Source: an uncultured Caryophanales bacterium
GTDB taxonomy: Bacteria > Bacillota_I > Bacilli_A > RF39 > UBA660
DNA: 40,385 nucleotides
Direction: 5' to 3'
Assembly (NCBI GenBank): GCA_946628005.1
Contig: CAMOWA010000011.1
Location: forward strand, 1-40,385
Shown here piece after piece: positions 261-5,233 of the stretch. The notes beneath the pieces are model-generated. The model searched no databases, had not been told where the DNA came from, and saw only the letters and a list, made by a program, of their open reading frames with translations. Every line of letters starts with the position of its first letter. Within the stretch, counting starts at the first letter, position 1. The translations under genes and the position numbers were made by a program.

Positions 261-2384
261 TTATTTTTGAGGTTTTTGTAACTTTTTAATTAAAACATTA
301 GGACTAGAATTTGAACCATTATTGATTATAGGCAAATTTTCTTGGGCAAATTGTTGTTGTTCTAGATAATTATGTAATTGTAATGTACGATTTATACCTC
401 TTTCATATTTGCTTTGTTTATTAACTTCTAAATTACTAAAAGTAGATGCTATAAAATCATGTATTTCATTAAGTATAATTCTATTGTTAAGTTCTCCAAT
501 AGCTTCAATTTCAATCATTCTATCAGTTGAAGAAATTTCATTTAATGCATGATTAGTATATAGACTATTATCAAAAGATAAACATACTTGAACTCCATTT
601 TTATCTAATACAATATCTTTTCTTTTTGTACGAGAATTTAAAATAGGAAATTTTAATATGTCATTAAAATTAACTGTTACCCCTGAATCAACCATCTTTT
701 GCATAAATGTTTCAAAACTATCATCTGATAAAGTTTCTTCAATTTCACTTCTTGATGAATAAACCTCACCTTTTTTTAGTGGCATTTTGCAAGTGGCTTT
801 TATTTTTTCTTTACCTTTTTGTTCAATCTTTCTTATTCGTAATGAGCCACCATTTTTATATAAATCTAAATTTCTTGTATCATAATATTCATCATTATTT
901 TCTTTTTCTGTTACTGAAACAACTCTAAATCCATTAGATGTAAATATTGAAATTATTTGATTAAGCAAAGTTTCTTGATCTAACGATTTTTCTTCATTAG
1001 GATTTTCGTTAATAATATATTTTAGTTCAAATTCTTCAGGTTTTTTATTTAATTCCTCAATCATTTTTCTTACCTCACTTTCATATTTTCTAAATTCTAT
1101 ATCACTTAAACCAAGCTCCAACCCCAACAATTGGGGGTTAAAGAAAACATATGTATCTTCTAATATTTCTTGTGGTCTTATTAAATTAGTACATTCTGTT
1201 AAATCCATAATTCTGTTTCCATTTTGAATATTTAATTTTTGTTCTTTTTTATATAGTTTTGTTTTAGTTCCAATACTAATTATCGATAGTTTATTATCTA
1301 AATTTATATTACCAAATATCTCTCTTAATTTTGTTTTAATTTTTTCTATTGAAATATCATTTTTTATTAAAATATAATCTTTTATATTATCAAAATCACA
1401 TAAGTAAGACATAATAGGATCTAAGTTTGATTCGGATAGCAATTTAAAAGAAACCTTAAAATCTTCATCTTTCATCGATAAAAAATCATTTAAATTATTT
1501 ACTCTTGAATCAGTAGCCAATATTTTAAAACTTGATGAAACAGGCATAGTGTGTAATTTCATAGTATTTCTATATCGTTCAATTATTTTTTCAAAGATAT
1601 AATCACCTAAAACAGAAACTGGACTTAAATATACATCTCGGTACATTTGATATCTTTGTAACAATACATTTTCTATGCTTGCTAGTCCTTTTCTATCAAT
1701 TAATAGTTCATATTCTTGATTGTTATTTACGACTACATTCACACTCGAAATAATTCTTTTTAAATCTATTGCAGAAGATATTCCAACATAATGTGCATCA
1801 CGAATCAAATAATCAATTCTATCTGCATCTAATTGATAGGAAACTAAATTATTAAGTAATTTTGTAAAACTATCTTTTCCTAATTCTTGACTATCATTAA
1901 TTTCTGCTATAAAACTAGCAATTTTTTTAACTTTTTGCTTTCCAAAGAAATTTGTAATTACTTTGTTTACTTCTGTATCGCCAAGTAAAATATCTATAGT
2001 TCGTTTCTCATGTGAGTAATTAGTTACTAGTTCTAATGAATGAGAAAATGGGCCATGTCCTATATCGTGTAAAAGCATAGAACATAGTGCAATATCTTTA
2101 TCATCTTCACTAAGTTTTATATTAAAATTTTTCAAAATTTCTTCCAATCTTTTTAAAAATAAAGACATTACATAAAAAGCTCCAACACTATGACTTAATC
2201 TATCATTATTTTCAAGTCCTTTAAATTCCAATTGTGAAAAACCATTTTGTGAAATACCTGATAGTCTTTGCATTTCTTTTGTTAAAACTATTTCAGAAAA
2301 AGGATAAGGAACAATTATTTTTCCATAAATTGGGTCCTCTACTACTAATGAATCATTTTTATCTTTACTATATATAAATGCCAT
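261..2384 (-). CDS. HD-domain phosphohydrolase fused to a C-terminal CYTH domain
   Basis: A 707-residue two-domain protein. Residues 1 to about 400 match the COG1078 HD family (YwfO-like dNTP triphosphohydrolases): H65 in RLSHS, H106-D107 in LLHDIGH, H115, and the DADRIDYLIRD segment near 186-196 are all present. From about 449 a CYTH (triphosphate tunnel) domain begins, with the EFELK signature (E451, E453, K455), followed by YYDTRNLDLYKNGGSLRIRK and later E-rich strands. CYTH proteins bind or hydrolyse triphosphates, or act as class IV cyclases. A strong site (TAGGAGG) precedes the ATG. Only 17 bases separate it from an upstream CYTH gene, so the two are surely co-transcribed. A nucleotide-triphosphate-sensing hydrolase is a reasonable inference; substrate and role are unknown. 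Confidence 0.85.
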   Translation of the reverse strand: MAFIYSKDKNDSLVVEDPIYGKIIVPYPFSEIVLTKEMQRLSGISQNGFSQLEFKGLENNDRLSHSVGAFYVMSLFLKRLEEILKNFNIKLSEDDKDIALCSMLLHDIGHGPFSHSLELVTNYSHEKRTIDILLGDTEVNKVITNFFGKQKVKKIASFIAEINDSQELGKDSFTKLLNNLVSYQLDADRIDYLIRDAHYVGISSAIDLKRIISSVNVVVNNNQEYELLIDRKGLASIENVLLQRYQMYRDVYLSPVSVLGDYIFEKIIERYRNTMKLHTMPVSSSFKILATDSRVNNLNDFLSMKDEDFKVSFKLLSESNLDPIMSYLCDFDNIKDYILIKNDISIEKIKTKLREIFGNINLDNKLSIISIGTKTKLYKKEQKLNIQNGNRIMDLTECTNLIRPQEILEDTYVFFNPQLLGLELGLSDIEFRKYESEVRKMIEELNKKPEEFELKYIINENPNEEKSLDQETLLNQIISIFTSNGFRVVSVTEKENNDEYYDTRNLDLYKNGGSLRIRKIEQKGKEKIKATCKMPLKKGEVYSSRSEIEETLSDDSFETFMQKMVDSGVTVNFNDILKFPILNSRTKRKDIVLDKNGVQVCLSFDNSLYTNHALNEISSTDRMIEIEAIGELNNRIILNEIHDFIASTFSNLEVNKQSKYERGINRTLQLHNYLEQQQFAQENLPIINNGSNSSPNVLIKKLQKPQK

Positions 2385-2401
2385 TTTTAACCTCCTATTA
2401 A

Positions 2402-2914
2402 TTATTTGCTTATCATAAGTTGTGGATATCTTTTTTGTTCTATATTATTTAAATTTAACCCTAAATTTCTACTGTCCTTTAACAGATTATCATATTCATC
2501 AAAGAAATCATTTATAGTTCCCTTTACTTCAATTTCAATAAAATATTCTAAATTATCGACTTTATCTAAAGAAACCTCATATTTATTTTGATAAGAATAA
2601 ATCATTCTTTCTTTTTTTACCTCAGTGATGTTCTTTAAACCAATAAAATCAAGTATTTTCATCATATTATTACTATTATCAATTTCAACTTCATATTCTT
2701 CATAGTACATATTGTTGTTATATGTTTTATAAGTTAATACTTTTTTATTACCACTTAATCTAAGTCTTAAAAATTTATTACTGTCACTAATGAAATAATC
2801 TGACCCGTAATATATATCTTGTTGATTACTTTGAAGTAAAAATTTGCCAATTGATTTCATCATTTTTTTCATTTTTTCGTATTCTTCTTTGGTTAATTTA
2901 ATTTTAATTTCCAT
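2402..2914 (-). CDS. CYTH domain protein (CyaB/ThTPase-like), C-terminal part of an interrupted HTH-CYTH frame
   Basis: A 170-residue CYTH domain starting with the EIKIK form of the ExExK motif. It then has a YYGSDYFISDSNKFLRLRLS segment (substrate-tunnel arginines) and EEYEVEI, the typical alternation of charged strands. The ATG has no Shine-Dalgarno sequence ahead of it (AACATTGAA). The frame upstream is open back to a helix-turn-helix domain, apart from one TGA at 2963-2965, so this was probably the second domain of a 242-residue HTH-CYTH protein. Whether it is now made alone, by readthrough, or not at all cannot be told. It lies 17 bases before the HD-CYTH gene. Confidence 0.75.
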   Translation of the reverse strand: MEIKIKLTKEEYEKMKKMMKSIGKFLLQSNQQDIYYGSDYFISDSNKFLRLRLSGNKKVLTYKTYNNNMYYEEYEVEIDNSNNMMKILDFIGLKNITEVKKERMIYSYQNKYEVSLDKVDNLEYFIEIEVKGTINDFFDEYDNLLKDSRNLGLNLNNIEQKRYPQLMISK

Positions 2915-2962
2915 TTCAATGTTATCTTTGAAATTATCGCCATATAATAAATAACTAGCACT

Positions 2963-3130
2963 TCATTCTAATATTTCAGATAACTTAATAATCATTTCTA
3001 AACTAGGTTCAGTTCTATTTGATTCCCAACTAGAAATAGTTTTATCTGTTACATATAATTTTGATGCTAATTCTTTTTGAGTAATATTTTTACTTTGCCT
3101 AAGTTTACTAATTCTTTCACCATAACTCAT
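2963..3130 (-). CDS. XRE-type helix-turn-helix domain, N-terminal part of the HTH-CYTH frame
   Basis: Fifty-five codons starting MSYGERISKLRQSKNITQKE: a classic XRE/Cro-CI fold with helix-turn-helix through TQKELASKLYVTDKTISSWE and the usual NRTEPSLEMIIKLSEIL tail. It ends at a TGA (codon 56) where related regulators commonly have C or D before the S-x-x-YLLYG sequence. That sequence is present in frame just after the stop and leads into the CYTH domain. GGGAGG lies 9 bases before the ATG. It is likely autoregulatory, through the palindrome at 3183-3197. As it stands the product would be a bare DNA-binding domain. Confidence 0.75.
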   Translation of the reverse strand: MSYGERISKLRQSKNITQKELASKLYVTDKTISSWESNRTEPSLEMIIKLSEILE

Positions 3131-3182
3131 ACATTAATTCCTCCCTCAAAAAAATTCTAACATAATTATCTTGCCTTTTTTC

Positions 3183-3226
3183 TCTACATTTTGTAGAAGT
3201 ATTACTATTATTTAATTATCTTTCAA
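3183..3226 (-). promoter_or_regulatory. Promoter and palindromic operator of the HTH-CYTH/HD-CYTH operon
   Basis: On the minus strand, TTGAAA (3221-3226) and AATACT (3198-3203) are separated by 17 bases. A perfect inverted repeat, TCTACA-AAA-TGTAGA (3183-3197), abuts the -10 box and would cover the start of transcription. That is where an XRE repressor would be expected to bind. The -10 box is not a strong match. Confidence 0.5.
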
Positions 3227-3404
3227 AATCATCTTTTTCTTTGCTTAAATCTAATTCTTCAATATCAAACTATATTAACAACCATGATTTCAACCATAAT
3301 AAATCCTTACAATTTAATAAATACGTTTATCGTTATAACCAAGTTTTTGGTTTGATTTTGCAAGTGCAAAATGAGTTTGCCCCTATGAAAAAACTAGTGT
3401 TTAT

Positions 3405-3609
3405 ATGGGTTTGAATAGTTTAAAGGGATAATCTTTTAACTCATGAGTTAGATCATTTAGATGGAATTTTACATATGGATATAGCAGAACAAGTTTTAAA
3501 TATGCCAAAAGAAAAAAGAAAAGAATTTAGAGAACAACATCCCTATGAAATTATTTCTAAAACTTGCGATTATGATGATAATATTAAAAAACTATTTAAA
3601 ACAAAGTAA
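3405..3609 (+). pseudogene. C-terminal remnant of peptide deformylase
   Basis: From about 3428 to the TAA at 3607-3609 one frame encodes LLTHELDHLDGILHMDIAE and then a KRKEFREQHPYEIISKTCDY tail. HELDHLDG is the HExxH-type metal-binding motif of peptide deformylase, and the tail fits the longer Firmicutes variety. A GFE just upstream, in another frame, would match the residues normally preceding the motif, so small insertions or deletions separate the pieces. No start or N-terminal half (the GxGxAA and CLS motifs) is visible. A separate, apparently intact def begins at 40301. No expression is expected. Confidence 0.6.
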
Positions 3610-3749: not shown

Positions 3750-3857
3750 ACTCAATGACCAAGAGTTATATGAGTCCTGGAGACGCAACTTTTAAAAGTT
3801 GCGTTATCCGTTTATACTAAAATGAAAAGCCTCTTAATTTGTTTAAGAGACTTTTTT
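3750..3857 (+). ncRNA. Candidate small RNA of about 108 nt
   Basis: A good promoter (3715-3743) is followed by a perfect palindrome at 3783-3804 (ACGCAAC pairing with GTTGCGT) and a strong terminator hairpin with a T tract. No known riboswitch or RNA family is recognised. As an alternative, one frame from 3697 to 3795 encodes 32 residues ending QLLNDQELYESWRRNF, which may be the tail of a decayed protein, in which case the promoter match would be fortuitous. The interval 3131-3842 holds only this cassette, the def remnant and the HTH promoter. Confidence 0.35.
3826..3857. terminator. Rho-independent terminator, possibly bidirectional
   Basis: Stem CTCTTAA (3831-3837) and TTAAGAG (3843-3849), extended by outer pairs, with T6 after it on the plus strand and an A/T-rich flank on the other. 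It overlaps the stop codon of the minus-strand nuclease-like gene. Confidence 0.65.
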
Positions 3858-4355
3858 ATATTTATTATATTCTTTTAATACATTTTGCAAATATCCTGGT
3901 TCATCAATTAAATATGAACTTATAATATACATATCATTTTTGTTTCTTTCAAGAATTATTATATAACTATATAAATCATTACTATACAATAATTTAGTTC
4001 TTTTAGTGTTTTTATATGGAGCAGTCCATATTTTTATTTTGCTACATTCCAAATCATCACAAGTAAGACAATTTAAATAGTTTTTTATCATTGGAGCAAC
4101 ATAATTAATAAAATATGCACGAGGTTCTTTCATTCTAATTTTTATTCCAAAATTTTTCTGCGTTTTAGTAGTCAGATGAAAGAATCCTTGCATTCTATTA
4201 TCTTCAAATGGTGCAGTAAATACTTTGATTTTCATTCCATTTATTTTTAAATCACCGTAATATATATTTTTTATAAAATAATCATATAATTCATCATCTG
4301 TAGTAGTTTCAGGTAGTGGACCATCTAATCCACATTTGTTTTTAAAGGGTATCAT
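3843..4355 (-). CDS. Small putative BECR-fold (barnase/EndoU/colicin/RelE-like) nuclease
   Basis: About 170 residues. The chosen ATG at 4355 (MIPFKNKCGL) has GGAG 8 bases upstream; an earlier in-frame ATG at 4412 lies deep inside the preceding gene and lacks a site. The C-terminal half has the look of phage-type BECR RNases: an H in FFHLTTK, two strand-like blocks with IKIRMKEPR and KIKIWTAPYKNTKR, and a final KLLYSNDLYSYIIILERN strand followed by MYIISSYLIDEPGYLQ and a KEYNKYKK helix. This assignment rests on pattern recall and is tentative. It starts inside the end of the DUF3800 gene (14-base overlap), so the two are translationally coupled. Confidence 0.55.
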   Translation of the reverse strand: MIPFKNKCGLDGPLPETTTDDELYDYFIKNIYYGDLKINGMKIKVFTAPFEDNRMQGFFHLTTKTQKNFGIKIRMKEPRAYFINYVAPMIKNYLNCLTCDDLECSKIKIWTAPYKNTKRTKLLYSNDLYSYIIILERNKNDMYIISSYLIDEPGYLQNVLKEYNKYKKVS

Positions 4356-5043
4356 CTCTTGATCTCCAAATAAATATATTAAACTTGGTATTACTACAAT
4401 ATGATGTTTCATTCAAATCATTTTGATATAATTTTTTAATTTCATTAATAATATTTAGTTTTACGCTATTACTAGAAAGATTCCTATAATAATATGATAA
4501 TGCCCCAATCATAATATCATTAATTTGTAGTATTGGTGCTTCATAAGATCTAATTGGTTGCACTTTCCTAATAGTCTTTTTATTTGTATCTTGCATTTTA
4601 ATTCTTAAATAATCAAGCATTACTTGATGATAATAATATGAATTAGTATCTTTTATATCAGGATATATATTATATGAATTACCTGGAATAATAATATATT
4701 TTAACATTTCATAATATGCTTTGTGATAGAATTCATTTTCCGTTTGATTATATTTTTCATGGTCTAATTTTGTTTTATCAATAACAATAACTCTAAATTT
4801 TAAATCATCATTATTAAAAAAATAATTAATAATATCTAAATATAATTTTTCGGTTTTTTTATCAATTTTATTCCATTTTAATTCTATTTTATTAGAAATA
4901 TTATAATTTTCCTTTAAATGTTCAATATATTCATTTACCTTTTTTACTTTAATCTTTGGACAATAAACTGCTCCAATTAACATATATTTGCTGTCATTAC
5001 TTACTAGATGGCAACTTTCATCGCAATAAATATTGTATTCCAT
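4342..5043 (-). CDS. DUF3800 domain protein
   Basis: A 233-residue protein beginning MEYNIYCDES, the N-terminal acidic signature of DUF3800 (D8, E9). It continues with the LIGAVYCP strand, a central VIVIDKTKLDHEKYN segment and the typical ending KFNIFIWRSR. DUF3800 proteins have an RNase H-like fold and are often found in mobile or defence contexts; their function is mostly unproven. AAAGGAGG sits 6 bases before the ATG. The next gene begins within its last 14 bases. It lies in the segment next to tRNA-Met and is likely accessory. Confidence 0.75.
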   Translation of the reverse strand: MEYNIYCDESCHLVSNDSKYMLIGAVYCPKIKVKKVNEYIEHLKENYNISNKIELKWNKIDKKTEKLYLDIINYFFNNDDLKFRVIVIDKTKLDHEKYNQTENEFYHKAYYEMLKYIIIPGNSYNIYPDIKDTNSYYYHQVMLDYLRIKMQDTNKKTIRKVQPIRSYEAPILQINDIMIGALSYYYRNLSSNSVKLNIINEIKKLYQNDLNETSYCSNTKFNIFIWRSRDDTL

Positions 5044-5110: not shown

Positions 5111-5162
5111 ATAGCAAAAAAAATCGAACTATAATAGTTCGAGTAAATTACAATATTGGTAG
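5111..5162 (-). repeat. tRNA-proximal copy of the tRNA tail/terminator repeat
   Basis: This covers the last bases of tRNA-Met (TACCA) and its terminator. A diverged copy in the same orientation lies at 131-181. Matching parts include ACCAATAT, the ATAGTTCGA arm and the T tract. Confidence 0.5.
5115..5142 (-). terminator. Rho-independent terminator of tRNA-Met
   Basis: On the minus strand, TCGAACTAT and ATAGTTCGA form a near-perfect stem followed by eight T residues, 15 bases after the CCA end. Confidence 0.8.
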
Positions 5163-5233
5163 CGAAGGAGGGGATCGAACCCCCGACCTTTCGGGTATGA
5201 ACCGAACGCTCTAGCCAGCTGAGCTACTTCGCC
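5157..5233 (-). tRNA. tRNA-Met (CAU), elongator type
   Basis: A 77-base cloverleaf with the CCA end encoded. The acceptor begins GGCGAAG and pairs with CTTCGCT. The D arm is GCTCAGCTGGCTAGAGC. The anticodon stem TTCGG/CCGAA encloses loop TTCATAC, giving anticodon CAT. The T arm is GGGGGTTCGATCCCC. The G1-C72 pair and overall sequence fit elongator tRNA-Met rather than the initiator. It has its own promoter and terminator, and the accessory segment starts at its 3' end. Confidence 0.97.

Follow-up and report, generated by a model that had tools for sequence, protein, structure and literature searches.

The window analysed here, a stretch of 40,385 nucleotides forming positions 1 to 40,385 of contig CAMOWA010000011.1 from an uncultured Caryophanales bacterium, encodes a protein, HD-CYTH, in which an HD domain of the deoxynucleoside triphosphatase (dNTPase) type is fused to a CYTH (triphosphate tunnel) domain. 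Beside it lies an interrupted gene of a second family, XRE-CYTH, in which a CYTH domain follows a helix-turn-helix (HTH) domain. We suggest that HD-CYTH is a two-site dNTPase and tripolyphosphatase, which lies next to a gene of an autoregulated and triphosphate-responsive regulator family. Taken as a whole, this explanation has in our view an even chance of being correct. According to it, the HD domain would act as an EF1143-type dNTP triphosphohydrolase, converting a dNTP into a deoxynucleoside and inorganic triphosphate (PPPi), and the fused CYTH domain, a tunnel of the tripolyphosphatase type, would split PPPi into pyrophosphate (PPi) and phosphate (Pi). The dNTP would be fully consumed, and PPPi would not accumulate. 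In relatives, intact XRE-CYTH would bind its own promoter at one palindrome that lies over the -35 region, and its CYTH domain would respond to a triphosphate-like ligand. In the lineage of the window and in one related genome, HD-CYTH would have come to lie downstream in the XRE-CYTH operon, and thus to be co-regulated. In the window itself a TGA codon stops the regulator frame. The regulator has therefore probably lost control of the operon here, while the HD-CYTH gene still has its own strong ribosome-binding site.

The first features concern the enzyme:

261 to 2384, minus strand: HD-CYTH protein, 707 amino acids, with an N-terminal EF1143/COG1078-type HD dNTPase domain and a C-terminal CYTH (triphosphate tunnel) domain

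1065 to 2384, minus strand: HD part, residues 1-440, with metal ligands H65, H106, D107 and D188, equivalent to H66, H110, D111 and D183 of EF1143

264 to 1064, minus strand: CYTH part, also called triphosphate tunnel metalloenzyme (TTM) part, residues 441-707, with ExExK at 451-455 and R516, R518, K529, K533, E547, E549, R588, D605, E625 and E627

Three Pfam families match HD-CYTH above their cut-offs (HD, 32.4 bits; HD_assoc_2, 26.3; CYTH, 37.8), the CYTH match spanning positions 22-136 of the 179 in the profile. These are the domains that an earlier, sequence-only reading of the window had named, and H65, H106-D107 and E451/E453/K455 were found where it had placed them. We aligned 16 HD-CYTH rows, one of which (L097) begins at residue 51. 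The four metal ligands, aligned to those of EF1143, are unchanged in all 16, and so are the tunnel residues of the CYTH part, from the ExExK motif through E627. In a Foldseek search with the HD part, the structure of EF1143, 2o6i, ranked first (E 8.7e-21, TMt 0.77). EF1143 is the dNTPase of Enterococcus faecalis (PDB 2o6i, 3irh, 4lrl), which we take to be of the COG1078 type. HD-CYTH resembles it in the HD fold and the four metal ligands. However, the EF1143 chain is shorter (480 amino acids in the PDB), and HD-CYTH has 267 additional C-terminal residues with the CYTH tunnel.

The CYTH part conforms to the motif rules for tripolyphosphatases: it has ExExK, RxR and a C-terminal ExE, and it lacks HF as well as a W/Y before RxR. 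A fold search predicts a tripolyphosphatase-like tunnel, a fold that cyclases and polyphosphate polymerases have as well. The sequence-only reading had proposed such a structural check, naming a tunnel without triphosphate-site residues as one of two results that would speak against it; the tunnel residues are conserved in the CYTH domains of both proteins. With the tripolyphosphatases YgiF, NeuTTM and SaTTM this part shares the predicted TTM barrel, ExExK, RxR and the second ExE, but it is very divergent in sequence. Compared by profile with solved CYTH proteins its best match is weak (E 0.035), and as a single sequence it found only chance-like MarR matches in the PDB (E 0.17 and 0.24). YgiF itself is described in PMC4641920 as carrying a CHAD fusion, whereas HD-CYTH carries a dNTPase-type HD domain instead. 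The start of HD-CYTH is preceded by a good ribosome-binding site, AGGAGG, and a gap of 17 bases (2385-2401), as had been counted before, separates the gene from that of XRE-CYTH.

The remaining features belong to the regulator gene and its promoter:

2402 to 3130, minus strand: XRE-CYTH gene, interrupted; under translation table 11 there remain a 55-amino-acid HTH fragment (2963-3130, TGA included) and a CYTH open reading frame (ORF) of 170 amino acids (2402-2914)

2963 to 2965, minus strand: TGA stop at codon 56 in the XRE-CYTH frame; relatives have intact copies

3183 to 3197, no strand: palindromic operator TCTACA-TTT-TGTAGA, which recurs upstream of most XRE-CYTH genes examined

3154 to 3164, minus strand: extended -10 promoter element (TATGTTAGAAT), which in the family follows the operator at a comparable distance

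When the window frame is read through the TGA, it matches Pfam HTH_3 with 53.4 bits and CYTH with 65.3 bits. We searched 288 genomes, which as listed (45 non-matching ones aside) all belong to one family, and counted strong matches across both domains. XRE-CYTH was found in 28 of them, the genome of the window and one split copy (in G210) included. Among the matches listed, which do not extend to the weakest, those in G226 and G035 and at a second site in G061 span both parts more weakly and were not counted. The nearest relative, in genome G007, is 77% identical and has no stop; the genome of the window also holds an intact paralogue, 43% identical, on contig C25. The G210 copy (locus L072) is split across two frames with stops, with the exact operator still upstream, and is thus a second decayed regulator copy.

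In an alignment of 18 of the genes found, E72, E74, R122, K135, E145, E147, K173, R175, D189, E199 and E201 are invariant and cover the published triphosphate-tunnel motifs; the lysine of ExExK varies between K and R. The NCBIfam model TIGR00318 (cyaB) scores 78.5 bits on the CYTH domain of XRE-CYTH (cut-off 57.95), a match that would name it an adenylate cyclase. Section 10 of PMC8233210 gives the rule for the class IV adenylate cyclase CyaB as HFxxxxExExK, with Ala replacing the second Glu of ExE. There is no HF before E72 in XRE-CYTH, and both E199 and E201 are invariant (18/18). The CYTH domain therefore fits a triphosphatase and not a cyclase, and we set the cyclase identity aside. The best solved relative of the family profile is SaTTM (E 1.5e-26), which is described as favouring inorganic triphosphate over nucleotides. 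The CYTH domains of the two families do not align as profiles (hhalign probability 0.3%, both profiles being shallow, with Neff 2.5-2.9), and a recent common origin of the two was not seen in that comparison.

Good evidence of autoregulation comes from the DNA upstream. We compared the regions preceding 28 XRE-CYTH genes of 27 genomes, two of the genes being from the bin of the window (G000); G040, whose locus L071 is without its 5' end, and L074-L077, which are partial or CYTH only, were omitted. A few of these regions come from closely related loci (L049/L072, 92% identical over 200 nucleotides; L057/L059, 72% over 151; L047/L049, 72% over 163; L047/L072, 71% over 131), and other pairs share about 16-73 nucleotides. 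The motif TTCTACA-NNN-TGTAGA(A/G), located 60-68 nucleotides before the start codon, is present with at least 11 of 14 matches in 19 of the 28 regions, and in 21 if two with 10 of 14 are included. It was derived from the window and from G007, where the palindrome is identical, so neither of these can serve as an independent test. For 17 of the 19 regions, no more than two of 300 base-shuffled sequences score as high; for L069 and L073 the figure is 3-4%. Most of the 21 regions have an extended -10 element, a Shine-Dalgarno sequence and the start at a similar spacing after the operator. Apart from four longer matches, most pairs of regions share this block alone (up to 73 nucleotides). The expected position is empty in seven loci (L056, L060-L063, L065 and L066), in three of which the exact operator lies nearby, either at the head of the gene unit (L056, and L063, whose locus is also L134) or just downstream (L060). 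This recurrence upstream of most XRE-CYTH genes examined goes beyond chance. The statement of the sequence-only reading that the pair shares a promoter with a palindromic operator is supported.

Genome-wide, the exact operator occurs in 16 of the 28 genomes with XRE-CYTH and in 4 of 59 controls (Fisher p 6e-7). None of the six genomes without XRE-CYTH that have HD-CYTH (four) or CYTH-only relatives of it (two) contains a copy. A reversed pattern used as a control matches 2 of 34 and 6 of 59 genomes. Of the four control genomes that match, three are from the genus of the window, and four of the five control sites viewed, out of six, fall inside ORFs. In 13 of the 16 exact-match genomes there is a single site, at the XRE-CYTH promoter. 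In G023 the operator heads a five-gene unit ending in XRE-CYTH, whereas G000 has three sites and G112 has two; the extra sites precede small uncharacterised genes. Judging by these sequences, XRE-CYTH is probably an autoregulated family with few targets. Since the operator lies over the -35 region, we infer that the protein binds DNA there, and that it represses rather than activates. Most members combine HTH_3 with a palindrome at their own promoter, which is what is expected of XRE regulators and predicts DNA binding; the window copy, stopped at codon 56, has no complete HTH in an open frame. XRE autorepressors of the P22 C2 and SinR type are similar in HTH_3, in sequence match and in the palindrome at the promoter, but the C-terminal domain of XRE-CYTH is a CYTH tunnel.

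Several genes accompany XRE-CYTH, in a survey of neighbourhoods where L058-L067 are wholly or partly uncovered. An uncharacterised family of about 180 amino acids, c3, lies directly downstream in L066, L067, L068, L069, L071 and L073, in several cases overlapping by 4 nucleotides; with L064, assigned by cluster membership only, it counts seven loci, and a scan of three members gave no Pfam match above a cut-off. In L070 (2171-3274, minus strand) the XRE-CYTH gene overlaps one for an AAA_28 P-loop protein with a CYTH match below the cut-off (20.5 of 23.2 bits), possibly a second case of a CYTH regulator next to a CYTH-like enzyme. Possible further targets of XRE-CYTH are genes in three operator-linked units (L132 4405-5292, L056 9270-9848, L134 3550-4002), which resemble one another weakly in a C-x-H ... 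C-x-x-C-G motif (two pairs found, with BLAST E 5e-4 and 0.011).

The alternative that survives best takes XRE-CYTH for a trigger enzyme, in other words an active triphosphatase with no task beyond repressing its own gene; it would have come to lie next to HD-CYTH by chance, through a single horizontal transfer. The single operator at its own promoter in 13 of 16 genomes agrees with this, as do the tunnel residues, which all 18 rows keep except for the K/R exchange at the lysine of ExExK, and the fact that the nearest solved relative, SaTTM, prefers PPPi. However, the further operators in G000, G112 and G023 precede small uncharacterised genes, c3 is a recurrent partner at seven loci, and the AAA_28 protein whose gene overlaps XRE-CYTH in L070 has a CYTH match, albeit below threshold. 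We consider this alternative a real possibility, though on balance a doubtful one.

How general is the pairing? HD-CYTH has matches at E <= 1e-40 in 8 of the 288 genomes. Both domains are present in the genome of the window, G007, G132, G035 and G183 (where a contig end cuts the protein), the HD domain only in G100 and the CYTH domain only in G036 and G275. A scan of GTDB contigs with only two peptide patterns, which makes its count a lower bound, found at least 16 loci in metagenome-assembled genomes (MAGs) of Bacilli, Mycoplasma-named bacteria and Clostridia, 51-87% identical in the best segment; gut sites are named for three. Fifteen of the 16 have both domains and L105 has CYTH only: at 788-1579 its first 22 or so residues lead directly into the CYTH domain, and an in-frame HD domain is absent. 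HD-CYTH is the sole HD protein of its kind in its six genomes (E <= 1e-8), and there is none in 21 other genomes tested. Its neighbours vary from locus to locus and, recognised by eye from their N-termini, resemble ordinary chromosome genes; in L091 it adjoins an integrase fragment and two tRNAs. The distribution is patchy, and the gene has perhaps moved horizontally. Linkage to tRNA is weak as a rule, with a tRNA within about 0.5 kb in 2 of 16 loci (L091 and L100).

XRE-CYTH adjoins HD-CYTH in one of the 15 two-domain loci. This is L090, the G007 contig, which has the same sequence as CALVRD010000070.1; its pair is 77/88% identical to that of the window, and its regulator is intact. Twelve other loci have room upstream and do not show the pair, and L097 and L101 are cut too close. 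Seen from the other side, 2 of 28 genomes, that of the window included, have HD-CYTH within the sequence retrieved on either side of their XRE-CYTH genes. The pair thus does recur, but it is not a conserved module; it looks like one event common to two lineages. We set a phage origin aside. Ten loci in viral contigs have HD-type relatives and no CYTH match, and none of the 249 phage records matching the read-through XRE-CYTH reaches 80% coverage, the best 15 matching the HTH end only. Likewise, none of 31 plasmid records matching HD-CYTH reaches 80% coverage, and the best 15 of the 31 match the HD part only.

These counts bear on the interpretation of the sequence-only reading, in which XRE-CYTH senses a triphosphate and controls HD-CYTH, as a module for nucleotide-depletion defence or nucleotide stress. 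In the window and in G007 the two genes share an operon with a conserved operator, the tunnel residues are conserved in both families and the distribution is patchy; these points favour it, as do the PADLOC matches described below. On this view the two proteins may sense one triphosphate and process a related one. On the other hand, of 13 HD-CYTH loci long enough to reveal the pair only 1 has it, the regulator is interrupted in the window, the operator is absent from four other HD-CYTH genomes, the two CYTH domains are not alignable as profiles, the neighbours of HD-CYTH are locus-specific and ordinary-looking, and the PADLOC dGTPase match is poor. We find this interpretation unlikely.

The search for nearby defence genes, which had also been proposed, found candidates. 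As had been said, the segment is tRNA-linked, with a tRNA-Met at 5157-5233. Adjoining it are a DUF3800 protein (4342-5043, minus strand) matching the PADLOC candidate PDC-M04A with 244.8 bits and an ORF (3843-4412, minus strand) matching PDC-M04B with 83.7 bits; the two overlap by 71 nucleotides, and these PADLOC models represent phage-defence candidates. Between the operator and these genes, at about 3300-3560 on the plus strand, there is what by eye resembles a decayed coding sequence, with a peptide deformylase-like HELDHLDG and no ORF of 80 amino acids. The HTH part of XRE-CYTH matches RmrA and HTH_VI (45.5 bits each) and capH (31.6), mostly within the HTH and its flank, as would be expected of a general HTH. 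For HD-CYTH the PADLOC dGTPase model gives a weak 22.8 bits, and the protein falls below the curated cut-offs of the anti-phage dGTPase families NF003701 (19 bits vs 383) and NF041026 (18.2 vs 400). The case for a defence role of the pair is circumstantial.

The Clover system, which along with SAMHD1 came up in the literature on EF1143, offers a comparison. There an HD dNTPase gene, for the dGTPase CloA, likewise lies beside a regulatory gene, but that partner is the nucleotidyltransferase CloB and not a predicted DNA-binding CYTH protein. No CloB-type nucleotidyltransferase adjoins HD-CYTH, whose neighbours on the side visible in the window are XRE-CYTH and the PDC-M04B and PDC-M04A matches, the edge being only 260 nucleotides away on the other side. 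According to the abstract of PMC12265719, CloA is regulated by p3diT and dTTP; the term CYTH is absent from the main text of that paper. PMC8177086 places EF1143 under dGTP control. Since nucleotide control of HD dNTPases is thus established, the CYTH domain of HD-CYTH could be an allosteric sensor that turns the HD dNTPase on or off when its tunnel binds PPPi, an NTP or a nucleotide signal. Mere binding, however, would not need the metal-site glutamates and the Arg of RxR that are kept in 16 of 16 rows, and the CYTH domain persists without HD in three loci. We think allosteric sensing improbable, and prefer a second active site.

What remains is the stop codon. TGA terminates 3 of 36 ORFs examined in the window, and the same ORFs contain 47 TGG codons. 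The bin encodes one release factor 2 (RF2) gene above the cut-off (501.9 bits), with a second match below it. No SelB exceeds the cut-off in the bin, where three GTPase-type matches lie below. With its 2.2 Mb the bin has an estimated contamination of 8%, and the RF2 and SelB results therefore apply to the bin. Four other listed genomes of the genus measure 1.0-1.3 Mb, so the bin may be mixed and bin-wide gene counts need care. Stop usage, TGG codons and RF2 speak against genetic code 4 (TGA as Trp), and the SelB result against selenocysteine. Downstream of the stop, translation of the CYTH half could begin at an ATG (2914), but a ribosome-binding site is not evident there; the XRE start at 3130 has a good one, GGGAGG. 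Since TGA is a normal stop in the window and the frame is stopped at codon 56, what had been taken for a single HTH-CYTH regulator is an interrupted gene here: its two domains are real, but the one intact protein came from reading through the TGA. That the TGA is recoded, so that a full-length regulator is made, we find highly improbable, as the open frame and well-preserved CYTH part beyond it are outweighed by the SelB and RF2 results, by the ORFs that end in TGA and by the full-length members listed elsewhere, none of which, except the split G210 copy, has an internal stop.

Iyer and Aravind (2002) are reportedly the source cited for fusions of HD hydrolases with CYTH domains. A passage of PMC8233210 mentions HD-hydrolase/CYTH and nucleotidyl-kinase/CYTH fusions, in which organism, enzyme type and coupling are not given. 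The former are of the same kind of architecture as HD-CYTH, so this architecture is already in print. In the literature searched we found no description of the XRE-CYTH combination, of its operator or of a coupling between dNTPase and PPPi-ase; a term search of PMC12565409 (XRE motifs) and PMC1524935 gave nothing relevant.

HD-CYTH would be an interesting tandem enzyme, and its pairing with XRE-CYTH is of limited generality. A bolder suggestion can be made, namely that PPPi is a regulated metabolite in these bacteria, which HD-CYTH makes and destroys on one chain and to which XRE-CYTH responds as a transcription factor with its own operator. We regard this as a long shot; if true, the operon of the window and G007 would be a meeting place of a PPPi producer, a PPPi consumer and a PPPi sensor. 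In one of its passages PMC3440374 asks whether PPPi exists in living cells at all. Specific PPPi-ases of the CYTH superfamily are without an agreed source of substrate. Since dNTPases release PPPi, the fusion of one to a CYTH domain of the tripolyphosphatase type would give them both a source and a purpose. XRE-CYTH, for its part, would be a family of regulators for which a candidate operator is defined, and whose candidate sensor domain is an unusual one.

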